From a virus, in IMG/VR virus record IMGVR_UViG_3300047557_003279, positions 1-32,399 of that record: 32,399 nucleotides of DNA; one strand, written 5' to 3'. Each line of letters begins with the position of its first letter. Positions within the stretch are counted from its first letter, which is position 1. The notes under the pieces are model-generated. The model ran no database searches, was not told the DNA's origin, and was given only the letters and a program-made list of their open reading frames with translations. The position numbers and the translations under genes are program-made. This document shows positions 592 to 31,251 of this stretch, piece after piece.

Positions 592-849
592 TTACTCCAT
601 CGTTAAAGCAGTTTTGACAGTAGCCTTAATGACCGCCGTGGATGACTCCCGGTCAATCTCTAAGTACCCCGTACAACAAATGTTGTAATCCACACCGTTC
701 TCATCTTTTTCACTTTTGATGGGAACTGAAATATCTAAGTTCTTAAATAAGTATTCTTTGCCGTTTTCAAACACACGCCAAACATGATCCATCGTGCCTC
801 GACCGGGCTGACCACGGGTTTTGTTAAAGCGGATTGAGTACTTGTTCAT
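592..849 (-). CDS. Small conserved phage protein, unknown function
   Basis: This 85-residue protein starts with an ATG that overlaps the upstream stop in an ATGA junction (846-849), so its translation is probably coupled to the oxygenase gene. The N-terminus (MNKYSIRFNKTRGQPGRGT, then DHVWRVFENGKEYL) matches a pattern I remember from small proteins in environmental phages, with no known function. The sequence is mixed alpha/beta in character and has two adjacent cysteines near residue 58. It has no signal peptide or membrane segment. Its position between two fibre-region genes suggests a role linked to the adsorption module, but nothing in the sequence proves that. Confidence 0.75.
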   Translation of the reverse strand: MNKYSIRFNKTRGQPGRGTMDHVWRVFENGKEYLFKNLDISVPIKSEKDENGVDYNICCTGYLEIDRESSTAVIKATVKTALTME

Positions 850-1541
850 ACGATCTCCGCTGCGGGCATAGGCGCCTGAACCGGCTGGGCCATCTGAACC
901 GACAGATTGAAATGCACAAACTTGATCGGTTTATCGGCGGCGTGGCGGGTAAATGCGTGGGCTAGCCAAGCGTTAGTAAAAATCATCAGCCCCGGTTTTG
1001 GCTCAAAGTTGATCATCTTGCTTGCCACGGTAGCCTGAGAGGCATCGGTCTCAGGTAGATCGATCTGAACCTTTCCTGCCCGTGGGTCATAAAAGACCAC
1101 CCGAGAGGAGTTCTCAGGAACCTCAAGGAAATAAAAGCCTACGATCTGAGATCCGTACCCGTGTGTATGCTGCTCCATAGAGGACTGTTTATGGTGTTCC
1201 TGAGTCCACATCTCCATGTAGGAGGTCACCTTGTCCTGCATGGCATATCCCTGCTCGTTGAGGATATTCCATGCGGTAGCGGCTACGAATTGGGCAAAAG
1301 GTTGAACCCGCTCATCAGCGTAAAAGTTTTCGCTCATTAAAACAGGATAGATTTCGTCAATCTTGTGTTCTTTGCGCTGTTTCTCCAAAGATTCTTCTGA
1401 AACCTTATTGACGGCTTCTAAGAAGTCTGGACGCTCAATCAGGTAGATTGGGCAAGGAAAGTGAAAGGCAACATTTAGTTGTGTGTTTTGCACAACTTCT
1501 TTTACCTGTTCGGCGGCCTTACATACTTTTTTCTTGCCCAT
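846..1541 (-). CDS. Putative 2OG-Fe(II) oxygenase (TIGR02466-like)
   Basis: The frame can open at 1562, but the ATG at 1541 has GGAG five bases upstream and follows the neighbour's TAA, so I chose 231 residues. The double-stranded beta-helix core is visible as HTHGYGSQIVGFYFLEVPE (from His125), then VVFYDPR, then PGLMIFTNAWLAHAFTRH and KPIKFVHFNL. In the TIGR02466 family the H-x-H/D pair and a distal histidine (here around His195) bind iron and a later basic residue binds 2-oxoglutarate. Related genes occur in cyanophages and other environmental phages with uncertain substrates. Placement between fibre genes suggests hydroxylation of a virion or cell-surface component, but a nucleic-acid substrate cannot be excluded. 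Confidence 0.72.
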   Translation of the reverse strand: MGKKKVCKAAEQVKEVVQNTQLNVAFHFPCPIYLIERPDFLEAVNKVSEESLEKQRKEHKIDEIYPVLMSENFYADERVQPFAQFVAATAWNILNEQGYAMQDKVTSYMEMWTQEHHKQSSMEQHTHGYGSQIVGFYFLEVPENSSRVVFYDPRAGKVQIDLPETDASQATVASKMINFEPKPGLMIFTNAWLAHAFTRHAADKPIKFVHFNLSVQMAQPVQAPMPAAEIV

Positions 1542-1543
1542 AA

Positions 1544-1930
1544 TTACTCCACTATTTTCCAAGAAGTTGTTGGTTCATCCCAAATATAAATTTTGGGTGG
1601 ATTTCCTTGTTCATGATCGCTTGGAATTGCAACAGGTGGAATCCAACCTCCAATTGTTTCATCTAAAACCCACGAATTAAAAGGCTTTGGGGGGATAAAA
1701 GCATCTTTTTCAGCATCATATTTATATCCAATACAAGCATAATTTTTTCTAAAAGGAATTCCTCCTAATTTATGGATTCCTTTTTGGGTGTTATATGAAG
1801 TTCTTTTGCACGCTAAACCACGAAAATTTTCATAGTGCTTTTCCCAATCAATTCCGTCTTCGTTCTCTTCTTTTCCGACAATAACTTCAACTACAATATT
1901 ATTTTTATCAAGAAATGCGTAATGAGCCAT
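1544..1930 (-). CDS. Conserved phage protein beginning MAHYAFLD, unknown function
   Basis: The ATG at 1930 has GGAG six bases upstream, overlapping the previous gene's TAG region. This is preferred over the in-frame start at 1942 and gives 128 residues. The pattern MAHYAFLDKNNIVVEVIVGKEE, then CKRTSYNTQ, GGIPFRKNYACIGYKYD and a Trp-rich C-terminus (WIPPVAIP, YIWDEPTTSW) is one I remember from many marine and freshwater phage genomes, usually near fibre genes. The aromatic and Pro-rich C-terminal half looks like a small beta-sandwich or carbohydrate-contact surface, but that is only an impression. There is no signal peptide. Function is unknown; it may be a small virion or fibre-assembly protein. 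Confidence 0.78.
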   Translation of the reverse strand: MAHYAFLDKNNIVVEVIVGKEENEDGIDWEKHYENFRGLACKRTSYNTQKGIHKLGGIPFRKNYACIGYKYDAEKDAFIPPKPFNSWVLDETIGGWIPPVAIPSDHEQGNPPKIYIWDEPTTSWKIVE

Positions 1931-1932
1931 TG

Positions 1933-2844
1933 CTAACTCCACGAAACATTGCCAGTGCCGGCAGTAAATGTACTAATTTTATTTGCACCTGATGTTGTAG
2001 TTGAAAAAGTAAGACCTCCACCAGGATTTGAAATCGAATAAACGCTTGGATATTTAAGAATTACAACTCCTGATCCCCCGTTTCCTCCATTGCTATTAAC
2101 TGGAGACCCTGAATTGTTCCATTGAATTCCACCGCCTGCGCCACCCCCACGATTTGCTGTGCCATTAGAGCCATTACCAGAACCGCTTGTTGCCGCTCCA
2201 TTGCCTCCTCCGCCGGAACCTCCTGTTCCAGATGTTGTTGTTGACACTGTTGGAAAAGCAATAACACCGCCGCCACCGCCACCGGCATAAGTTACGCAAG
2301 AACCAGATATATTTGATGTAGATCCAGATCCACCATTTCCTCCGGAAAATGTTCCTCCATTAGATCCAGCACCGCCTGCCCCACCGCCTCCGCCGGCTCC
2401 AGTTCTACAAGTTGTTGCATTATTGCCACCATTATTTCCTTGCGATGGACTTTGCGTTGGAGTGTTTCCTGTTCCGCCAGACCACGAACAATTACTTGTT
2501 GCTGCTCCTCCGCCGGAGCCACCATTTGCTCCAGCGCGAATGCAACAAGGGTAACCTGGATACCCTCTACCGCCACCACCTCCACCGCCTGCTGAAGTTG
2601 TCGTATTAAAAACTGAATTTGATCCACTAGCTCCTCTAGGGCCAAATCCAACGCAAAATCCACCTCCCCCGCCAGCTCCAACTGTAACCGTGTAGTTAGT
2701 ATTTGCTAATAAAGTAGCACTACTTGTTCTGTATCCACCTCCACCACCGCCACCGCCTGCCCACCCACCGCCACCGCCACCAGCCACAATTAGAGCCTCA
2801 ACATCTAGAGGTAGTTTTCCAGATGCTCCAACAAATGAAAGCAT
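1933..2844 (-). CDS. Glycine-rich tail adhesin
   Basis: I chose the ATG at 2844, eight bases after the upstream TGA with a weak purine-rich GAGCGGA site, giving 303 residues; the frame extends to 2880. About 25 N-terminal residues (MLSFVGASGKLPLDVEALIV) lead into a long tract dominated by Gly, Ser, Thr and Asn, with runs such as AGGGGGGGWAGGGGGGGGY and GGSGGGGNGAATSGSG. The C-terminus (GGLTFSTTTSGANKISTFTAGTGNVSW) looks like a compact beta end. Polyglycine-II type sandwiches of this composition occur in distal phage adhesins such as T-even Gp38, so receptor binding is the likely role. Long open frames in the other minus-strand frames here reflect composition only. Confidence 0.82.
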   Translation of the reverse strand: MLSFVGASGKLPLDVEALIVAGGGGGGWAGGGGGGGGYRTSSATLLANTNYTVTVGAGGGGGFCVGFGPRGASGSNSVFNTTTSAGGGGGGGRGYPGYPCCIRAGANGGSGGGAATSNCSWSGGTGNTPTQSPSQGNNGGNNATTCRTGAGGGGGAGGAGSNGGTFSGGNGGSGSTSNISGSCVTYAGGGGGGVIAFPTVSTTTSGTGGSGGGGNGAATSGSGNGSNGTANRGGGAGGGIQWNNSGSPVNSNGGNGGSGVVILKYPSVYSISNPGGGLTFSTTTSGANKISTFTAGTGNVSWS

Positions 2845-2852
2845 AATTCCGC

Positions 2853-3473
2853 TCACGACACATTCCCCGTAATTACGCAAACAGTGCCGCTAATAAATAA
2901 AATTGTTGCTACGCCGCGAGTGGCTAAAGTTACTGATGCTTTATCGGCGTCCGTTCCAGCGATGTAAGCGGTTGTAATTGTGCAGGTGATCGTAATGTTG
3001 CCAGTGGTGTTATTAAATATTGATATTGCATCACCCTCTGCAAATGTTGCATCAGGTATAGTAATCGACCCACCAGAACCTACTTGAACATATTTACCAA
3101 CATCACCAACTGCGAGGGTGTAAGAACCTGTTTTCGTTCCTACCGCCGGAAGGTTGATGTACCCAAGAGTCGATGTTGTTGACGGCAAAGTGCAGGTCAC
3201 ATTTGATGCAAGAGAAGCCGGAACGGTCAGTGACACATAGTTTGTGCCATTGTCCGTATCCTCATAAATTTTTACATCTGCTGGGCCGCTCGATGTCCCG
3301 CTAACCGCAACGCCGCCAACTGCCGTCACCGTGCCAACAAAAGATGCGTTTTGCGATGTATTCAGCGTTAAGGCTGTCGTCGTGCCATTGGTCTGAAACA
3401 CCAAATTACCGGTTGTATCCCCGGTATTAACTAACGCGCTACCGGATGTGGTTCCTGCTGCAATCGTACTCAT
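2853..3473 (-). CDS. Modular tail fibre protein
   Basis: This 206-residue protein has a textbook start, with AAGGAG five bases before the ATG at 3473. The first 70 residues are Thr/Ser/Gly/Ala-rich (NTGDTTGNLVFQTNGTTTALTL), as in the shafts of bacterial and phage fibres. Residues about 70-105 hold the EDTDNGTNYV...ASNVTCTLPST module shared with the partial fibre at 1-588. The C-terminal half (KYVQVGSGGSITIPDATFAEGDAISIFNNTTGNITITC) resembles a small beta-helix or beta-sandwich tip often seen at the end of environmental phage fibres. It lies between another fibre gene and the glycine-rich adhesin, so it may be a subunit or adaptor of the same fibre. Confidence 0.75.
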   Translation of the reverse strand: MSTIAAGTTSGSALVNTGDTTGNLVFQTNGTTTALTLNTSQNASFVGTVTAVGGVAVSGTSSGPADVKIYEDTDNGTNYVSLTVPASLASNVTCTLPSTTSTLGYINLPAVGTKTGSYTLAVGDVGKYVQVGSGGSITIPDATFAEGDAISIFNNTTGNITITCTITTAYIAGTDADKASVTLATRGVATILFISGTVCVITGNVS

Positions 3474-3482
3474 GTCTGCTCC

Positions 3483-4052
3483 TTACAGTACAAGCCAACG
3501 CTGGCCAGAAGATACGGTCACGCTTTGACCTGAAGCCACAGTTACCGGCCCAACCGACAGAGCATTGGTTCCTGAGGCGATGGTGTAACTTGCCGATACC
3601 GTGGTGCTATTTACCAAAAGTCCGTTTGAGGCCACCAGCTCTGAGGCTTTCAACTCACCGGTGCTTGGCTTATAAAGTAGCTTTGCGTTACTGGTATAGA
3701 TATTAAGAGCCGAACCGGTTGTAGCTTGCAGAAACGACGGGTAGTAGTCGGTTGAGCTTGAGGTGTCATTGCTAATCGTTGCGCCGCTGGTAATCGTCGT
3801 CCAGCTCAAGACCCCTGCGCCGTTGGTCGTAATTGCCTGACCATTAGTGCCGTCTGCCGTTGGGTACTTTAGGGCAGCAGGGTTATTGAAAAACAGTTTT
3901 ACCGTGCCGGACGCATTCTCCATGTACATCGACATATCGTTGTTGGCAATGTTGAGCGCCAACTCACCTGCAACCAAGTTTGCGTTGCTAGGTACATTCG
4001 TTGCCGTAGTACTGTGATATAGCGATATTGGGGTATAGCCTGCTTGTGCCAT
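3483..4052 (-). CDS. Tail fibre-like protein
   Basis: This is a 189-residue protein whose ATG at 4052 is preceded by GAGGT. The N-terminus (PISLYHSTTATNVPSNANLVAGELALNIANNDMSMYMENASGTVK) is a familiar phage module: the GELALN...D..lY/M pattern often begins tail-fibre or knob proteins. The middle has KYPTADGTNGQAITTNGAGVLSW, close to a module in the partial fibre at 1-588. The C-terminus is Ser/Val/Thr-rich (VGPVTVASGQSVTVSSGQRWLVL), a beta-structured end also common in fibres. It directly follows the sugar-transfer cassette, so it is a candidate substrate for those enzymes. No catalytic or receptor-binding residues can be assigned. Confidence 0.75.
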   Translation of the reverse strand: MAQAGYTPISLYHSTTATNVPSNANLVAGELALNIANNDMSMYMENASGTVKLFFNNPAALKYPTADGTNGQAITTNGAGVLSWTTITSGATISNDTSSSTDYYPSFLQATTGSALNIYTSNAKLLYKPSTGELKASELVASNGLLVNSTTVSASYTIASGTNALSVGPVTVASGQSVTVSSGQRWLVL

Positions 4053-4054
4053 TT

Positions 4055-4504
4055 CTACCTCTTAATTAAAAGTTCCTTCAAGTGTTGGTAAACCACCTTC
4101 GGCTCCACAAACTTCTCGCTTTTGTGTTCTACCATCTCCCACCACAGAAATTGGTTTTCCGCCAAGCAAGACCGATCTTTGAGAAGATTTATATTCTCCG
4201 GGTGACCGAAGATCAGCGGATCGGACACCGACCAAAGCACTATCCCGGGCTTTTTCTCGTCCCAGGCTAGGTGCTGAAAGAAACTGTCGCATCCAATCCA
4301 TGTCTTGCATTGCTTAATCAAACTCCTTAATTCTGCTATTGGTAGGTTTTTCCTAAAATCCTCAACTAAAGCCTCTTCTCCATCTATGCCGATCTGCACG
4401 ACCGGCTCGTCAATCATCTCTAAAAGCTCGCTCCAATATGGGTAGTCTTTTGGGTTACGCTTTCCGGTTCTAAGTTTTTTCGCATATGGTGCTATCAAAA
4501 TCAT
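4055..4504 (-). CDS. C-terminal half of a GT9 (heptosyltransferase-like) glycosyltransferase
   Basis: This 149-residue protein starts in an ATGA overlap with the gene before it. MILIAPYAKKLRTGKRNPKDYPYWSELL followed by PVVQIGIDGEE matches the start of the C-terminal Rossmann domain of GT9/ADP-heptose transferases. ELRSLIKQCKTWIGCDSFFQHLAW matches the donor-binding part, where the family has (D/C)S-x-x-x-H. The N-terminal GT9 domain is absent here, but a matching segment ends the preceding protein (4501-5469). The two products could assemble into one GT-B enzyme, or a single ancestral frame may have been split. The presumed donor is a nucleotide sugar, with a virion fibre or host surface glycan as acceptor; both are inferred. 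Confidence 0.7.
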   Translation of the reverse strand: MILIAPYAKKLRTGKRNPKDYPYWSELLEMIDEPVVQIGIDGEEALVEDFRKNLPIAELRSLIKQCKTWIGCDSFFQHLAWDEKKPGIVLWSVSDPLIFGHPENINLLKDRSCLAENQFLWWEMVEHKSEKFVEPKVVYQHLKELLIKR

Positions 4505-5469
4505 AGGTACATCTTGCGGTAAGCCTTCTCCAAACTATCTTTCCAACCCCATTGGTGCATCTTTTTATAAATACTGTACGGCTCAATATCACCTAGCATC
4601 TGTTGCGCCTCAGCAATCGATCTACCCGGAATAATCTCGGGATAGCATCCAAAAACAGCTGGATTCTTAATTTCCGGCAACAGGTGCGTGAAAACAATAT
4701 GATCGCCCATACCCCCGTTTAGCACCACCACGGTGTTGTCTCTGAGCTTTAGGAAGTTTTGGAATATCCGCTCATCATGAGCATAAAGTTCAGCGTTTTT
4801 CTCCATCCGAATCCCGCCCTCAGCCTTTAGGTGCCAAGTCGTAGCCCCGGGGACGGCAAGCACTCTGTAACCCTTCTTCTTTAAAGAATAGGTAAACATA
4901 GTCTCTTCCCGGTGGGCCACCCGAGAAAGTCCGAGGTTATAGTCCACCACCCCAGCTCGGTATAAAAATGAGCAGTGCAGGTGATCAACCTCGGTCAAAT
5001 GCTTAATCTCAGCCCACTGAAGGTTCGCCTCAGAATCAATCTTCTCTAGTAGCCCGGTTGACTTGGATGTATCGAACGGCCGGCCAGGCATAAGAATTGC
5101 CCCGCCAATAGCCCCTACATCATCTGCAATATGGCTAACAAGAACTTCCAAAGTAGTTGGCTCAGGGATAGCATCATCATCGACTCTCCAAACCCAGTCA
5201 TAGCCCATGTTGTTGGCGATCTGATGATTATGGTGCTGACCCTTCTTCCCGGCAAAAAGCCATTCCCACTTAATTCCCTTTTGGTTCAAGATGCAGAATA
5301 GGTTTTTATAAACAGGATGCTCCCGAAGATCCTCAGGACTGTCGTTATCGTCAAAAATGACCAGCTTATCGACCGGCCGTGTCTGATTGGCCACCGCCAT
5401 TAGGGCTATAGGCAAGGTCGTGTGATATCGCCCCCGGGTAGATATTGAGCAGAGAACTATCTTGTCCAT
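4501..5469 (-). CDS. GT2 glycosyltransferase with a GT9-like N-terminal domain at its C-terminus
   Basis: This is a 322-residue protein. Residues 1-240 form a GT-A fold: VLCSISTRGRY at the start, ALMAVANQTRPVDKLVIFDDND, then WVWRVDDDAIPEP with the DDD metal site at 97-99, and HREETMFTYSLKKKGYRVLAVP further on. From about residue 245, NTVVVLNGGMGDHIVFTHLLPEI resembles the opening strand and Gly-rich loop of GT9 enzymes. The protein ends at residue 322, before a full GT9 domain, and the next gene supplies the missing half. It overlaps the previous gene by 13 bases and the next by an ATGA. It probably acts in the host cytoplasm on a fibre protein or a lipid-linked/LPS sugar; the target is inferred. 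Confidence 0.77.
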   Translation of the reverse strand: MDKIVLCSISTRGRYHTTLPIALMAVANQTRPVDKLVIFDDNDSPEDLREHPVYKNLFCILNQKGIKWEWLFAGKKGQHHNHQIANNMGYDWVWRVDDDAIPEPTTLEVLVSHIADDVGAIGGAILMPGRPFDTSKSTGLLEKIDSEANLQWAEIKHLTEVDHLHCSFLYRAGVVDYNLGLSRVAHREETMFTYSLKKKGYRVLAVPGATTWHLKAEGGIRMEKNAELYAHDERIFQNFLKLRDNTVVVLNGGMGDHIVFTHLLPEIKNPAVFGCYPEIIPGRSIAEAQQMLGDIEPYSIYKKMHQWGWKDSLEKAYRKMYL

Positions 5470-6905
5470 ATCTCGTTAGTCCTGCCCAAGTCTCGGTAGT
5501 TGATCATCTCTCCCTGAGAGCCTAGATCCCAAGCACCAATATGTTTGCGGTCTTTAAGGGTAAACCCGAAGGACTCTAATTTCTTCTCTATTACCTCGAT
5601 GCCCCGATATTTGGGGTGCAGATCTCCGTGAACCTCTAGGGCGATCGTGGTGATCCGCTCCATGTCCTCTTCTGAGGCGTTCATCAGGATGTCGTACTCA
5701 GCACCCTCGCAGTCCATCTTAAGGAAGACATTGCTGCCATCGACCATGTCTAAGAGGTTATTTAGGGTGACGGAATAGACCTCTTCAAAGTCTTCTTGGA
5801 CGCCATAAAGGCTGTTATGGCCCGTTTTTTGCTGTAGCCCTATCCGCACATACTCCCCGGCACGGTCAGAAACCACGGCCTTCTGCGGCTTGATGACATC
5901 TGAACCCGACTTCCATACATTTTTAATCAGGACATCAAAGGTCGGGGTCACCGGCTCAATCGCTATGACCTTCCTAGCCCCAAGGCTAGCGGCCAAGATT
6001 GAAAAGGTGCCCATATTAGCCCCGATATCGATGACCTCTCGGCCACGCATGGACTCTTCAGAGGCTCCATAGACATTCCCGACGATCACCTCATCGAACA
6101 ATTCCTTGGCTTCAGGGCCGTTTTCGCACATCCAGGCAAGGGATGACCTGATTTGATGGTCTTTAGCCTGTCTGTGGGCGTTTTTGGCCCATTCAGGGTT
6201 ATGTTTTTCGGCCAATTTAAGCTGGTTTTGGAAAAAAGCGGACTTCCAATCCTTTACCAAGACCGAATCGTGAACCGTACCCTCGCCCTTGTGATAAATC
6301 GGGAAGGCTCCGGTGTTGGTTTGGCCGTTCCAGCCCTGATTTTCACACTGAATCACCTTAAATCCGGCGTTTTCAGTCTCTAAGCAAAACTCAATGTCCT
6401 CGCACCCACCTGCCCCAAACTCCGGATTCAGTAAGCCAACGGTCTCAAAGACCTTACGGTCGATCATCACGCAGAAAAACACCGCAAAGTCCCGGCCGGT
6501 AATCTCTGAATGGGCCTTTAAGACGGCTGAGATCCCGCACTTCTCGTCTTCAAAGGCGGAATTCAGCATCTTTAGCCAAGTTCCGCGCTCTTGGTCCAAG
6601 AGGATGCAGTCGTTATTCAGAAGGACAATCCGGTCAGCTGTCGCATGGCGGATGGCCACATTGTTGGCGACTGGATACCCCAAGGGGACATCGCTCCATA
6701 AGACCTTGAAGTGATCCCCAAACCCAACCCGATCAAACTGATTTTTCAGAGACTCTAAATACCAGCGGGTGTTATCCGTGCATCCATTAGCCGATACGAT
6801 TATCTCCACCTCGGACATAACGGAATGCTTAAAGACGGACTCAAGACACGGCCGCAGCAGGTCATCACAGTGGTTGTAGGTTGGGATGACGATTGAATAC
6901 TTCAT
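5457..6905 (-). CDS. Fusion of GT2 glycosyltransferase and FkbM-type methyltransferase
   Basis: A 482-residue two-domain enzyme whose ATG overlaps the fibre's stop (TGATG at 6903-6907). Residues 1-250 are GT2: SIVIPTYNHCDDLLRPCLESV, IIVSANGCTDNT, VLLNNDC (NND at 97-99 in place of DXD) and GAGGCEDIEFCLETENAGFKV. Residues about 288-470 are an FkbM methyltransferase: VIDIGANMGTFSILAASLGA (SAM loop at 293-302), AIEP near 317, and FLKMDCEGAEYDIL at 394-407. Such fusions make and O-methylate a sugar or sugar chain. Position directly after the collagen-like fibre suggests modification of fibre serines, or else of the host surface to block superinfection. Substrate specificity cannot be read from the sequence. 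Confidence 0.85.
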   Translation of the reverse strand: MKYSIVIPTYNHCDDLLRPCLESVFKHSVMSEVEIIVSANGCTDNTRWYLESLKNQFDRVGFGDHFKVLWSDVPLGYPVANNVAIRHATADRIVLLNNDCILLDQERGTWLKMLNSAFEDEKCGISAVLKAHSEITGRDFAVFFCVMIDRKVFETVGLLNPEFGAGGCEDIEFCLETENAGFKVIQCENQGWNGQTNTGAFPIYHKGEGTVHDSVLVKDWKSAFFQNQLKLAEKHNPEWAKNAHRQAKDHQIRSSLAWMCENGPEAKELFDEVIVGNVYGASEESMRGREVIDIGANMGTFSILAASLGARKVIAIEPVTPTFDVLIKNVWKSGSDVIKPQKAVVSDRAGEYVRIGLQQKTGHNSLYGVQEDFEEVYSVTLNNLLDMVDGSNVFLKMDCEGAEYDILMNASEEDMERITTIALEVHGDLHPKYRGIEVIEKKLESFGFTLKDRKHIGAWDLGSQGEMINYRDLGRTNEIWTR

Positions 6906-9304
6906 CAGAAGGTTCCGCCCACCACACCTGATAAGAAGGCATTGGTTGTTGCGTTATAGCTCAAGTCAGAGTCCGTCAAGGCACTTTGGCTTCCGGTCGT
7001 GCCGGCCACTAGGACGGGGTAGACCGGCGTCGTAGAAGTCGTAGCGACAGAAATTGTCGTCGGCGGCGCACCCGAAAATCCCGATGTGCCACTGAAGCCC
7101 GAGAAGCCGCTAATGCCGGAAAAACCTGAAAACCCCGAAGTTCCCGAAAAACCTGAAGTTCCGCTAAATCCGCTAATTCCACTAAACCCTGAGATTCCGC
7201 TGAAACCGGAAAACCCTGAAAATCCTGAAGTTCCGGAAAAGCCACTAAGACCAGCTGTAATTGCAAAAATAATTGGATCGTTATTTGCAAAGCTGTAAGT
7301 TGAGGTTACAAGACTGACCGGGAATTCCCAGTAACTATTTGATAAGCCAGGATTTACATTATTTGGGGTTCCGTTGACTTCCCAAACTTGATAATTAGCA
7401 CTCGATGTTCTGCTTTGAATTGTAAATCGTTGAGTTTGCTTAATTAAAGCCAAGAAAATATCAACATCAACTCCATCGTCATCTTCATGGCTTACATTGA
7501 TTTGCGTGGCGCTTGATTGAGTTGCGTTGTTCCACAACAAAAATCCAACACCTGGATCACCGCTTTGTGATGTTGTTTTCGCTAGATATGGATAAAAAGT
7601 TGATGCCGATCCAACTGCGCCTGAAAATCCTGAAGTTCCCGATTGGCCCGAAAATCCACTAGTTCCTGAAAATCCAGAAAATCCTGATTGGCCACTAAAT
7701 CCTGAGAATCCCGAAGTGCCGCTTTGAGCTATGCCATCAAGCCCCGAATAACCCGAAAATCCTGAGAATCCAGACTCTCCGCTAAATCCCGAAAATCCGC
7801 TAATTCCGCTATCGCCAGAAAATCCACTGATGCCGGAAAATCCGCTAGCTCCCGAAAAACCTGATTCACCAGAAAATCCCGAAAAACCAGACTCGCCGCT
7901 AAAACCCGAAACGCCACTGCCTGAGTATCCGCTGAATCCTGATTCGCCCGAAAAACCGGAAATTCCAGAAAATCCACTGATTCCGCTATCACCGGAAAAT
8001 CCGCTAATTCCTGAAAAACCTGAATAGCCGCTCTCTCCGCTAAAACCTGAGAATCCGCTAAAGCCTGAAATTCCGCTAAAGCCCGAGAATCCGCTAAATC
8101 CGGAAGTGCCAGAGAATCCGCTAATACCGTTTACGACCGCAAGGATGACTTCAAGGTTATCTGCAAACCCTGAGGTTCCAGTTCCACCGGAGTCAACAAG
8201 CGTACAAGGAATCGTCCAGTAATTACCTGCATTCGATGGCGCCCCGTTGATCAGCCACTTTTGGAAGTTTCCGCTATTAGCTTGATCCTGAATGATGAAG
8301 TTTTCAGTTTCGGCAAGCAGGGCCAAAAAGACATCAATATCAACGCCATCGTCCGTTATGTGATTGACATTGATTTGTGTTGCGCTTGTTTGGGTTCCGT
8401 TATTCCAAAGTAGCTTGCCTGATCCGGGGTCCCCTGAGGTGCTTCCCGTATTAGTGCGGTATGGGTAAAAGGTACTCGATATACCGCTAAGTCCAGAAAA
8501 GCCAGAAAAACCGGAAATGCCTGAGAATCCGGAAAATCCTGAAATTCCGGAAAATCCGCTAAAGCCGGAAAATCCACTGATGCCGGATGAGCCTAAAGCG
8601 TTAGTCCAAGCACCACCAATCAAGCCCTCAAAATACTGAGTCTGAGTGTTGTATCGAATCTGCCCATCCGGGCCATAGATCTGTTGAGCGGTTGTCCCGT
8701 TAGGGATCAGCATCGCCCCGGTGCCTGGTATCCGCGGGTTGTCCGAAATCCCAATAGTCGGGTTTCCGGGTCCGGTTCCGTTGGCTACATCAATCTCATT
8801 AGTCGTTCCCGTAATTTCTAGGGCGGTGACACTGCTTCCCCCAACAATCCCTAGGACACCGGTTCCGGCAAGCCCTGCAAGCGATCCTACGGCCCCTGTA
8901 AGGCCGATCGTTGGGTTTCCTGCAATGCCATTGCCGTCAGAAACCGAGACCCCTGTGGAGCCTGTAATCGTGCGCCCGACCATTGTTGAGGCGTTAGTTT
9001 TGGACTGCAGCCCCAAAGTAGAGGAGAAAAGGCTCGCTACCGCTCCAGCGAGGCCAATCTGCATAGTCGATTGAGCTCCGCCATCGGTGAGGCTTAACCC
9101 CGATCCGACAGACAAGGCCCGACTATTGATCAGGCTCGGCTCTTGGTTGACCGTAATAAAGGTCTGAGTCTGACTCGGGGAGGCGGCAATAGCCCCCGTT
9201 GTGGTCTGTACGGTCTGACCGTTTTGGACGATAGGTACCGCCTCAGTCCCTTGAATTGGACCGGCGGCAGGTAATTGGGTAATGGTGACTTGTGCTGAAG
9301 GCAT
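6905..9304 (-). CDS. Collagen-like Gly-X-Ser tail fibre with duplicated beta domain
   Basis: This 799-residue protein starts in a TAATG overlap. Its N-terminus (VTITQLPAAGPIQGTEAVPIVQNGQTVQTTTGAI) is a widespread phage fibre-anchor motif, also seen at the start of the protein at 11126-12127. About 230 residues follow before a first Gly-X-Ser block. Two copies of a roughly 110-residue domain (TFYPY...GDPG.G.LLWNN.TQ.SATQINV.H..DDGVD.D.FLAL) are each followed by a further repeat block. The triplets are almost all G-X-S with X mostly Phe or Ile and essentially no proline, unlike animal collagen. A trimeric shaft with receptor-binding knobs is likely. Two sugar-transfer genes follow directly, which suggests modification of the shaft. 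Confidence 0.9.
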   Translation of the reverse strand: MPSAQVTITQLPAAGPIQGTEAVPIVQNGQTVQTTTGAIAASPSQTQTFITVNQEPSLINSRALSVGSGLSLTDGGAQSTMQIGLAGAVASLFSSTLGLQSKTNASTMVGRTITGSTGVSVSDGNGIAGNPTIGLTGAVGSLAGLAGTGVLGIVGGSSVTALEITGTTNEIDVANGTGPGNPTIGISDNPRIPGTGAMLIPNGTTAQQIYGPDGQIRYNTQTQYFEGLIGGAWTNALGSSGISGFSGFSGFSGISGFSGFSGISGFSGFSGLSGISSTFYPYRTNTGSTSGDPGSGKLLWNNGTQTSATQINVNHITDDGVDIDVFLALLAETENFIIQDQANSGNFQKWLINGAPSNAGNYWTIPCTLVDSGGTGTSGFADNLEVILAVVNGISGFSGTSGFSGFSGFSGISGFSGFSGFSGESGYSGFSGISGFSGDSGISGFSGISGFSGESGFSGYSGSGVSGFSGESGFSGFSGESGFSGASGFSGISGFSGDSGISGFSGFSGESGFSGFSGYSGLDGIAQSGTSGFSGFSGQSGFSGFSGTSGFSGQSGTSGFSGAVGSASTFYPYLAKTTSQSGDPGVGFLLWNNATQSSATQINVSHEDDDGVDVDIFLALIKQTQRFTIQSRTSSANYQVWEVNGTPNNVNPGLSNSYWEFPVSLVTSTYSFANNDPIIFAITAGLSGFSGTSGFSGFSGFSGISGFSGISGFSGTSGFSGTSGFSGFSGISGFSGFSGTSGFSGAPPTTISVATTSTTPVYPVLVAGTTGSQSALTDSDLSYNATTNAFLSGVVGGTF
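7070..7257 (-). repeat. Third Gly-X-Ser coding block of the fibre
   Basis: Approximate limits of the C-terminal triplet block (AGLSGFSGTSGFSG... to SGFSGAPP). At DNA level glycine uses several codons and serine switches between TCN and AGY, so the protein repeat is much more regular than the DNA repeat. This is a coding repeat and not a CRISPR or satellite array. Confidence 0.85.
7612..8136 (-). repeat. Second and longest Gly-X-Ser coding block of the fibre
   Basis: Approximate limits of the central triplet block between the two copies of the TFYPY domain. X is Phe, Ile, Glu, Asp, Tyr, Gln, Thr, Ala or Val, with Ser at almost every third position. Codon choice varies from triplet to triplet, which would lower slippage and recombination. 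Confidence 0.85.
8478..8595 (-). repeat. First Gly-X-Ser coding block of the fibre
   Basis: Approximate limits of the shortest, N-terminal triplet block (SSGISGFSGFSG... to GLSGISS), just before the first TFYPY domain. X is Phe, Ile or Leu here, so this block is the most hydrophobic of the three. Confidence 0.85.
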
Positions 9305-29450: not shown

Positions 29451-29747
29451 TTACTCAGGTATTACCTTTAGCCTCCCGGACTCAAACAACCACCCAATCG
29501 TTTTGCGGTGCGCCATTTCCCATAGGTCCTGCCGGTCCTCCTTGCTCATCTTAGAGCCTTGATCCAGCTCCATATGGCAGGAGTAGCACAGGGCGGCTAT
29601 CCGGTAGTCGTGGGCCTTTATGGCCGTTCCCTTGCCGTCCCGCTGCTGGTTGGAGTGGGCAGCCACCACCGTCCCGTCTTGGGCCCCGCAGAGCTGGCAG
29701 GGAGACTCCCGGACGATCTCTAAAAGGGTCTTATTTCTGTAGTTCAC
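29451..29747 (-). CDS. YbcO-like HNH-type nuclease
   Basis: A 98-residue protein that starts with GTG at 29747, AAGGA six bases upstream, and overlaps the methyltransferase end by 17 bases. The family pattern of YbcO/DUF1364 nucleases is visible: CQLCG (Cys17, Cys20), VVAAHSNQ (His31), GTAIKAHDYRIAALCYSCHMELDQG (Cys54, Cys57, His58) and AHRKTIGWLFESGRLKV. The four cysteines would bind zinc and the His residues support DNA cleavage. Such genes occur in lambdoid prophages next to recombination genes. Here it is paired with a DNA methyltransferase. The true target is unknown. Confidence 0.83.
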   Translation of the reverse strand: MNYRNKTLLEIVRESPCQLCGAQDGTVVAAHSNQQRDGKGTAIKAHDYRIAALCYSCHMELDQGSKMSKEDRQDLWEMAHRKTIGWLFESGRLKVIPE

Positions 29748-31251
29748 AGACCATCCTTATCCGCTCCCCGATCCAAGCCATGACCGGAACCGCCATAGAG
29801 TTGCCTAAAGCCTTGTATCGAGGGCCATCCGGGCATTGGGAGGCATCCTTGCCCCGCCACGGGATCAGGGTGTGGTCATCGGAAAAGCCTTGAAGCCGCT
29901 CACATTCCCGCGGGGTGAGGCGGCGCACAGCCATCGACTGCATAACATGATTGTGCGGAATGCTGTCTTTCCCGCCGCTTGCGCCGTGATGTTTGGCAAA
30001 ACAAGCGGTCAATGGATCGGCAGTTTCCTGAAAGACAACCGGCTGCATCACCGCAGTCCCGCCCTGATTGGCAGTCGGATTTAACCCTGAAGTGGCGTCC
30101 AAGGTTTTGCTTGTGTCCTCATTCATCCGGACATAAAACCCGCCCTCCGGCCTGTCAGATCGCTTGTTACCACCATAAATGTTCAAGGGTTGAGCTACAG
30201 CGTGATGGTTTGTTTTGGTAAGGGTAAACATCGCCTCTCCCTCCTCCCCCAATCCACAACCTGTTGAAGCGTCTGCCTCCGGGCTTCGGAAGATGTTCAT
30301 GGAATCTAACGGAATCGGTTGAACTACGGCATGGGTAGTGCGCGTATCGCCTTGATCGAATAGGTTGACGGTATTGGCAATCCCATCATCTACCCATGTC
30401 TCATCATCGTCTTGGGTATGAGCTCGCTTAGATTTCCGGTAAGCCATCGGAATATAGGTCTCATGCTCTGTAGCCGCATTACCGGGGCGGGATACCCCGG
30501 CAGTCGATGACAACAAGGTGGACATGACCTCAGGCAGACCGACCGGTTGGGCTACGAATAATCCTCCCTCATTTCCTGAGGGTCCTCCTGATCCTTTTGC
30601 CCATTTGCTTGTGACGGTATCGGCACACTCTGCGTTTGAGCCACCGTACTGAGGGCCTGGTGGAGAGCCGGGGGTAACTCCTTGCCCCTTTTCTCTGCTC
30701 GGCGGAGGATTCCCTGACATGCTTGCGAGCTCAAAAAGAACCGCTGCGGCAGCTCGCCAGTTTCCAAGACATCCGACAACGAACACACGGCGGCGTCTTT
30801 GGGCCACTCCGAAGTACTGAGCGTCAAGAACTCTGTAGGCGAACCCATACCCGAGTTCTCCCAACATTCCGAGGAAGGTACCAAAGTCCCGTCCTCCGTT
30901 TGACGACAAGACCCCAGGGACATTCTCCCAAACCAACCAACGGGGAGCGAAGTGGCGAGCAATGGCACCAAAGGTGAGCATGAGGTTGCCACGCGGATCG
31001 TCCAATCCTTTTCTGAGTCCGGCGACTGAGAAGGACTGACAGGGGGTTCCTCCGACAAGAAGGTCAATTGATCCAAGATTCCACTCCTTAAATTTAGTCA
31101 TATCGCCCAGGTTCGGCACATTCGGGTAGTGATGCTTAAGCACGGCTGATGGGAATGGCTCAATTTCAGAGAACGCCACCGGCTCCCATCCCATGTGGTG
31201 CCAAGCCGAGGTGGCTGCCTCAATACCTGAGCACACGGACAGATATTTCAT
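29731..31251 (-). CDS. Cytosine-5 DNA methyltransferase with repeat-rich target region
   Basis: A 506-residue enzyme that starts in an ATGA overlap. Motif I is SVCSGIEAATSAW (5-17), motif IV GGTPCQSFS with catalytic Cys71, motif VI WENVPG (108-113), motif VIII QRRRRVF (151-157), motif IX RRLTPRECERLQGF (443-456) and motif X ALGNSMAVP (481-489). The region between VIII and IX is about 285 residues, longer than in single-target enzymes such as M.HhaI, and holds about six variants of a short unit (ADTVTS, STLLSS, ANTVNL...HAVVQP, FTLTK...AVAQP, KTLDAT...AVMQP, DPLTACF...NHVMQ). Methylation probably protects phage DNA from host restriction; the target sequence cannot be read. Confidence 0.9.
   Translation of the reverse strand: MKYLSVCSGIEAATSAWHHMGWEPVAFSEIEPFPSAVLKHHYPNVPNLGDMTKFKEWNLGSIDLLVGGTPCQSFSVAGLRKGLDDPRGNLMLTFGAIARHFAPRWLVWENVPGVLSSNGGRDFGTFLGMLGELGYGFAYRVLDAQYFGVAQRRRRVFVVGCLGNWRAAAAVLFELASMSGNPPPSREKGQGVTPGSPPGPQYGGSNAECADTVTSKWAKGSGGPSGNEGGLFVAQPVGLPEVMSTLLSSTAGVSRPGNAATEHETYIPMAYRKSKRAHTQDDDETWVDDGIANTVNLFDQGDTRTTHAVVQPIPLDSMNIFRSPEADASTGCGLGEEGEAMFTLTKTNHHAVAQPLNIYGGNKRSDRPEGGFYVRMNEDTSKTLDATSGLNPTANQGGTAVMQPVVFQETADPLTACFAKHHGASGGKDSIPHNHVMQSMAVRRLTPRECERLQGFSDDHTLIPWRGKDASQCPDGPRYKALGNSMAVPVMAWIGERIRMVCELQK
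30552..31076 (-). CDS. Overlapping alternative-frame ORF inside the methyltransferase gene
   Basis: A 174-codon frame lies wholly inside the methyltransferase gene in another minus-strand frame. It starts with TTG at 31076 and has a perfect AAGGAG seven bases upstream, although those bases also encode KE in the main frame. The product (MDQLTFLSEEPPVSPSQSPD, then GWFGRMSLGSCRQ, NSGMGSPTEFLTLSTSEWP, LPQRFFLSSQACQGILRRAEKRGKELPPALHQAL) resembles proteins I remember annotated in many phages and proteobacteria. Conservation there may only follow the conserved methyltransferase motifs. I list it as a candidate dual-coding gene, not a proven one. Confidence 0.42.
   Translation of the reverse strand: MDQLTFLSEEPPVSPSQSPDSEKDWTIRVATSCSPLVPLLATSLPVGWFGRMSLGSCRQTEDGTLVPSSECWENSGMGSPTEFLTLSTSEWPKDAAVCSLSDVLETGELPQRFFLSSQACQGILRRAEKRGKELPPALHQALSTVAQTQSVPIPSQANGQKDQEDPQEMREDYS

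Follow-up and report, generated by a model that had tools for sequence, protein, structure and literature searches.

The linear IMG/VR virus record IMGVR_UViG_3300047557_003279, the whole 32,399 bases of which are here called the window, belongs to a phage of freshwater type and carries a gene for a collagen-like tail fibre that is followed by a cassette of three genes for sugar-modifying enzymes. These are a family 2 glycosyltransferase (GT2) fused to an FkbM-type methyltransferase (GT2-FkbM), a GT2 that ends in a putative N-terminal half of a family 9 glycosyltransferase (GT2-GT9N), and a stand-alone C-terminal half of such an enzyme (GT9C). The pair of GT2-GT9N and GT9C and its link to one type of fibre recur in many phages, which is more than coincidence. 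From this gene content and arrangement we consider it rather probable that the phage uses these enzymes to add sugars and methyl groups to its own collagen-like tail fibre. The four genes are listed below with their lengths in amino acids (aa):

6905..9304, minus strand: collagen-like tail fibre, 799 aa (PF01391 E=9.7e-34, 115 bits; tail-fibre PHROGs down to E=1.7e-31)
5457..6905, minus strand: GT2 fused to FkbM-type methyltransferase, 482 aa (PF00535 at residues 4-105, PF05050 at residues 293-448, TIGR01444 E=2.7e-23)
4501..5469, minus strand: GT2 of GT-A fold (~1-240) with putative GT9N (~245-322), 322 aa (PF00535 E=6e-6; GxGDH motif)
4055..4504, minus strand: GT9C, stand-alone C-terminal (donor-binding) half of a GT9-type GT-B glycosyltransferase, 149 aa (PF01075 E=5e-5, positions 173-218 of 247)

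In this order, each gene runs into the next, with overlaps of 1, 13 and 4 nucleotides (nt). An earlier note on this DNA had described the same arrangement of fibre, GT2-FkbM, GT2/GT9N and GT9C, and it is borne out by the coordinates, the Pfam and TIGR matches and the common minus strand. The window genes lie on the minus strand and, by reading of their proteins, include portal-, terminase-, capsid- and fibre-like genes.

Linkage of the enzyme pair to one type of collagen

The window fibre has the long unbroken Gly-X-Y run of a collagen. It comprises 91 triplets, 86 of which are Gly-X-Ser with mostly Phe or Ile at X, while proline is nearly missing. Three Gly-X-Ser blocks are laid out with two copies of a globular domain between them, and this domain is also found in Methylophilaceae phage P19250A, in HTVC010P and in cyanophage tail fibres. 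All six codons are used for serine at the Y position (28 AGY, 58 TCN), and the presence of both kinds indicates that serine is kept at the protein level. This fibre is our candidate for the sugar acceptor.

Seen from the enzymes, a collagen with Gly-X-Ser/Thr (GX[S/T]) triplets was present at 124 of 170 GT9C loci, mostly adjoining the cassette, on either side of it. In a test from which redundancy had been removed, and which kept only enzyme-seeded loci with enough flank, 18 of 30 GT9C clusters had a GX[S/T] collagen on the same strand within 1.5 kb, and none had one on the opposite strand. At points chosen at random in other phage loci with collagens, the control figure was 308/3339 (9%).

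Seen from the collagens, the link is confined to one class. Here, collagens were drawn by DNA pattern, and the figures cover the matches listed, on fragmentary contigs. Within 6 kb on both sides, the pair occurred at 36 of 89 loci with a window-type collagen (aromatic or aliphatic X, Ser at Y), compared to 0/47 loci with Gly-Thr/Ser-Ser and 0/78 with Gly-Pro-X collagens. Among the next three genes, cassette genes followed 33 of 69 window-type collagens, 0 of 45 Gly-Thr/Ser-Ser and 0 of 93 Gly-Pro-X collagens, with three lone FkbM matches set aside. The Fisher test of 33/69 against the other classes yields p=2.5e-19, where, as in all p-values on this link, related contigs are counted as independent. 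A general association of phage collagens with glycosyltransferases was rejected, as the other classes have some GT4, GT25, GT2 and PLOD-type neighbours but, among the matches listed, never this pair. The globular knob of the window fibre is found in just 24 of the 123 cassette-linked collagens. Hence, the link is to the shaft, and perhaps also to a module at the N-terminus, and not to a single domain that binds the receptor.

The arrangement is also present in a cultivated phage. P19250A (KX815270) encodes a 1201-aa collagen with Gly-Tyr/Ile/Phe-Ser triplets, followed by a methyltransferase, GT2-GT9N and GT9C, all three annotated as hypothetical. When all open reading frames (ORFs) of at least 80 aa were compared by BLASTP (E<1e-3), the fibre, GT2-GT9N and GT9C were the only proteins that the window and P19250A had in common, and these three thus move as a unit between unrelated phage backbones. 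The P19250A collagen gene (L180:21390-24995) is annotated as 'tail length tape-measure protein'; it is probably a mis-annotated collagen-like fibre.

Relatives of GT9C are encoded on 581 viral stretches. A GT9N-bearing gene lies just upstream of 156 of 174 viral GT9C ORFs, with a 4-nt overlap in 96 of them, and there is no fused pair among those 156. The recurrence of this split, which is also present in P19250A, rules out a sequencing error as its cause. In a later sample, GT2-GT9N and GT9C are joined, with their order unchanged, in one natural ORF of 537 aa (L480, 7641-9254), encoded on the strand opposite to the collagen of that contig. Apart from this one natural fusion, in the window and in nearly all relatives the two GT9 domains are on separate chains. 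In the sampled relatives the cassette opens with a GT2 that bears a methyltransferase of changing family (FkbM, Methyltransf_11/23/25, Methyltransf_24), and other forms have the methyltransferase fused to GT2-GT9N or free. The pair is thus the core and the methyltransferase a regular companion. The methylated sugars proposed in the earlier note are in agreement with the methyltransferase present in the variants examined.

Among 84,980 bacterial and archaeal genomes, the cassette family had only 7 matches. The closer ones are on contigs of metagenome-assembled genomes, most of them phage-derived in look, and the two weakest are partial matches to other GT9-like proteins. Recent capture from a host is therefore unsupported.

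Enzymes and sugar donor

GT9C exceeds the PF01075 cut-off barely (23.1 against 22 bits), and its P19250A counterpart remains under it (15.6 bits). A GT9C profile matches WaaC in the PDB (E=0.0016). Residues K19, D73 and H78 are invariant in 49 representatives and align with K192, D261 and H266, the donor-site residues of WaaC. The AlphaFold model (predicted local distance difference test, pLDDT, 97) has WaaF (Z 16.4), TibC (15.8) and WaaC (15.4) as its closest folds; together with 3tov these span Z 14.7-16.4, while folds outside the family score 12 or lower. GT9C thus has the homologous C-terminal donor domain of the GT9 family.

Both GT2 proteins match PF00535 (E=6e-15 in GT2-FkbM). For GT2-GT9N, a sequence search against solved structures gave no match, and the model (pLDDT 94) has GT-A neighbours at Z~18. 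Residues invariant in 47 representatives are the DDD at 97-99, which is the acidic metal-binding motif of the GT2, and G253, G255, D256 and H257. The fold neighbours, which include polypeptide GalNAc-transferases, chondroitin polymerase, TarP and LH3, lie within one or two Z units, and a choice of donor or acceptor from them was dropped because the scores are too close together. GT2-FkbM is a member of the FkbM family, with 83 bits for TIGR01444 (cut-off 37.7) and 39 bits for PF05050 (E=1e-9; cut-off 22.7).

The last ~75 residues of GT2-GT9N have no Pfam match of their own. They open with an invariant GxGDH, like the MGD of WaaC residues 11-13, and the model shows a strand-helix-strand. From the motif, the position and the natural fusion we infer that GT9N is the N-terminal half of a GT9, and with GT9C it probably belongs to a single GT-B enzyme whose halves are carried by different proteins. 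This predicted split enzyme, and the ADP-heptose that may serve as its donor (see below), go beyond what the earlier note had claimed.

The cassette enzymes have no membrane-type segment, the highest 19-residue hydropathy being 1.52. A gtr-type system has a membrane-anchored GtrB and a GtrA flippase; the window offers a weak GtrB-like PHROG match (E=0.016) and, by reading of the neighbouring window proteins, no GtrA-like small membrane protein.

A hint on the sugar donor comes from three loci. At L503, the gene run consists of collagen, GT2, GT2-GT9N, GT9C and an HldD-like epimerase (TIGR02197 E=1.9e-62, under the equivalog cut-off) that overlaps GT9C by 4 nt. At L061 and L041, genes for an HldE-type kinase and adenylyltransferase and for HldD lie just upstream of the cassette. 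These genes make adenosine diphosphate heptose (ADP-heptose) the best guess for the donor of the GT9 step, and ADP-heptose may indeed be that donor. They occur at 3 of 226 cassette loci, none of which were fetched through such genes. Hence, most phages would need the host pool, and the HldD neighbourhood was rejected as a general proof of the donor. When the L503 HldD was used as the query, the only matches were its own sequence at 100% and nine relatives at ~30% identity. Phage-borne runs of ADP-heptose genes were seen at L061:1760-3957, L041, L018, L020 and L531-L594, with HldE adenylyltransferase and kinase as separate ORFs, a cupin in some, and then an HldD-like epimerase, relatives of which are encoded at 64 viral loci.

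Proposed fibre decoration and its alternatives

The fibre and the cassette enzymes are made from overlapping genes, and in our proposed explanation modification would take place during assembly. GT2-GT9N and the GT9-type enzyme (GT9N plus GT9C) would put sugars on serines of the exposed Gly-X-Ser shaft, the second GT2, in GT2-FkbM, would lengthen the glycan, and the FkbM domain, judging by its family, would O-methylate it. ADP-heptose may be the donor of the GT9 step, as it is in serine heptosylation of the TibC type. One may speculate that such a glycan would make the shaft stiffer or shield it, and would alter its meeting with the host or other particles. A more specific version, in which a split phage-specific GT9 with one half fused to a GT2 heptosylates serines of the fibre's collagen triple helix while its partners extend and methylate the sugar, is put forward tentatively, as a doubtful but possible refinement. 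The presence of the serine O-heptosyltransferase TibC among the fold neighbours of GT9C was counted in favour of glycosylation of fibre serines. Decoration of the phage's own fibre is favoured because the pair tracks one collagen type, is with that collagen all that the window detectably shares with P19250A, has no membrane segments and is nearly absent from bacteria. Of the two possibilities raised in the earlier note, it has become the better supported through genomic linkage, while modification of the host surface retains some support.

Several findings weigh against fibre decoration. About half of the window-type collagens among the matches listed have no cassette nearby, and serine at Y is also common in Gly-Thr/Ser-Ser collagens, which lack the cassette. 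An N-terminal module is common to 101 of the 123 cassette-linked collagens (single linkage), so that common descent may explain part of the association. Some large phages carry the cassette without a window-type collagen beside it; at L036 it adjoins head genes and at L014 it comes after LamG-like fibres (both by reading), and at L035 and L061 it sits in sugar-gene clusters. To these can be added the rarity of ADP-heptose genes noted above, the lack of a significant match of GT9N to WaaC, WaaF or WaaU by hhalign, and the weak match of the GT9N profile to full-length phage GT9. At L036:8001-12646, the genes before the cassette read like T4-type head genes, not fibre genes, and the acceptor there may differ from a collagen fibre.

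The main rival explanation is that the cassette modifies a surface glycan of the host (core or O-chain of the lipopolysaccharide, LPS), for instance blocking superinfection or re-adsorption, and that the fibre binds this glycan, which would tie the modification to receptor choice. This would predict pairing with the fibre as well. The LPS inner core is classically built by GT9 enzymes, and some large phages carry the cassette among clustered sugar genes where no Gly-X-Ser collagen is present. Furthermore, this is the usual interpretation of glycosyltransferases that phages encode in host-recognition clusters (PMC7029224), and for those at the fibre loci of phages from aquatic habitats the roles put forward have been action on host LPS or protection of DNA (PMC7029224; PMC10202952). 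However, what the pair tracks is the shaft's repeat type and not the knob, and the other phage collagens among the matches listed are without the pair. By hydropathy the enzymes have no membrane segment, unlike gtr-type systems, and the family is nearly absent from bacteria. Coupling to fibre genes, which are normally expressed late, may also leave little time for a change of the surface. On balance, we regard modification of the host surface as somewhat unlikely.

Downstream of the cassette, after 2 nt, two further fibre-like genes and one for a virion-type protein follow:

3483..4052, minus strand: fibre-like protein, 189 aa, 27% Ser+Thr (phrog_5342, tail fiber C-terminus, E=5.5e-5; phrog_34255 E=1.1e-6; fibre or unknown PHROGs)
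2853..3473, minus strand: fibre-like Ser/Thr-rich protein, 206 aa (no family match)
1933..2880, minus strand: glycine-rich virion-type protein (Gly_rich_2), 315 aa (PF21722 E=8.9e-18; phrog_2295 E=2e-45)

The first two contain 27-30% Ser+Thr, and the earlier note's wording of 'further Ser/Thr-rich fibres' is a fair description of them, with PHROG matches in the former only. Beyond the fibre genes, a 2OG-Fe(II) (2-oxoglutarate and iron-dependent) oxygenase (846-1562, minus strand; PF13759, TIGR02466-like) could be another virion-modifying enzyme. A protein at 29731-31251 (minus strand) resembles, by reading of the sequence, a cytosine-5 DNA methyltransferase.

These Ser/Thr-rich genes, together with the cassettes after T4-type-like head genes at L036 and after LamG-like fibres at L014, would suit a virion that is glycosylated on another structural protein, a Ser/Thr-rich fibre or the capsid, with the collagen merely linked. 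Yet it is the collagen that recurs beside the cassette, and apart from the pair no other detectable gene is common to the window and P19250A; we think another acceptor improbable. Alternatively, the enzymes might serve no purpose connected with the fibre and be carried along neutrally at a recombination hotspot, given that fibre loci of aquatic phages are hypervariable, gene-collecting islands (PMC10202952). Such neutral carriage would be hard to reconcile with the other collagen classes at comparable loci, where the pair was found at 0/125 loci against 36/89 (among the matches listed), with catalytic residues that are invariant across divergent members, or with the conserved translational overlap of the pair. 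Hence, we give this last explanation very little credence.

Comparison with known systems

None of the precedents TibC, L230 and A064R, discussed below, has this combination of features, and our literature search found no description of this module. If the fibre is decorated as we propose, many uncultured phages carry glycosylated collagen, which bears on the range of hosts they infect, on how stable their particles are and on the arms race between phage and host. The cultivated P19250A makes the question of fibre glycosylation directly testable, and a split GT9 would be an unusual enzyme architecture.

The spore collagen BclA of Bacillus carries O-glycans on triplets with a hydroxyl residue at Y. 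The earlier note had drawn on this analogy, which is weaker than that with serine heptosylation by TibC and in AIDA-I or with Mimivirus L230. BclA has Gly-Pro-Thr instead of Gly-Phe/Ile-Ser triplets, belongs to a bacterial exosporium and is modified by different enzymes. Alg13 and Alg14 are a GT-B enzyme with its halves on two proteins, of a UDP-GlcNAc family, membrane-bound and with a lipid acceptor. The split is alike, whereas the window enzyme is GT9-like and soluble.

Among viruses, there are glycosylated mycobacteriophage virions, in which phage glycosyltransferases presumably act on the phage's own structural proteins (an inferred case is given in PMC11256854). These are capsid or tail proteins of actinobacterial phages, however, with no collagen and no split GT9. 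Protein A064R of PBCV-1 combines glycosyltransferase and methyltransferase domains in one viral protein, and builds and methylates the glycan of a virion protein (PMC9614988). It joins two glycosyltransferase domains to the methyltransferase, and differs from the window in having rhamnosyltransferases and in its target, the N-glycan on the capsid protein of a chlorovirus. The lysyl hydroxylase-glucosyltransferase L230 of Mimivirus is likewise a virus's own enzyme, and it glycosylates collagen-like proteins (PMC9614988). Its acceptor residue is hydroxylysine, and Mimivirus is a giant virus that infects amoebae, in contrast to the Ser-rich collagen, GT2 and GT9 enzymes and tailed phage considered here. 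On a 7.2-kb viral contig, a PLOD-type glycosyltransferase (L336:2798-4621, minus strand; PF25342 E=1.6e-52) lies near a Gly-X-Thr/Lys collagen (5193-7196), and this pair possibly represents collagen-lysine glycosylation as in Mimivirus. Another viral contig, of 170 kb, has two Gly-Pro-X collagens and after them a protein in which GT4-type and GT25 domains occur together (L188:3349-5736, minus strand).

WaaC and WaaF of E. coli, both GT9 enzymes, have a donor domain that aligns with GT9C, but they are full-length single chains that act on LPS, whereas the enzyme in the window is split and linked to a phage fibre. The bacterial autotransporter heptosyltransferases (BAHTs) TibC and AAH are a further close parallel. 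They are GT-B enzymes of the WaaC type that transfer heptose from ADP-heptose directly to serines of repetitive surface proteins, and TibC, which is among the closest folds of GT9C, heptosylates serines and not threonines of autotransporters (PMC4358343). TibC is a dodecamer-forming single chain that contains an iron finger and has autotransporters as its substrates, and the window enzymes are not single-chain proteins of this kind. Instead, the window has two proteins (322 and 149 aa), in which a much reduced N-terminal part is fused to a GT2, with a putative collagen-like acceptor.

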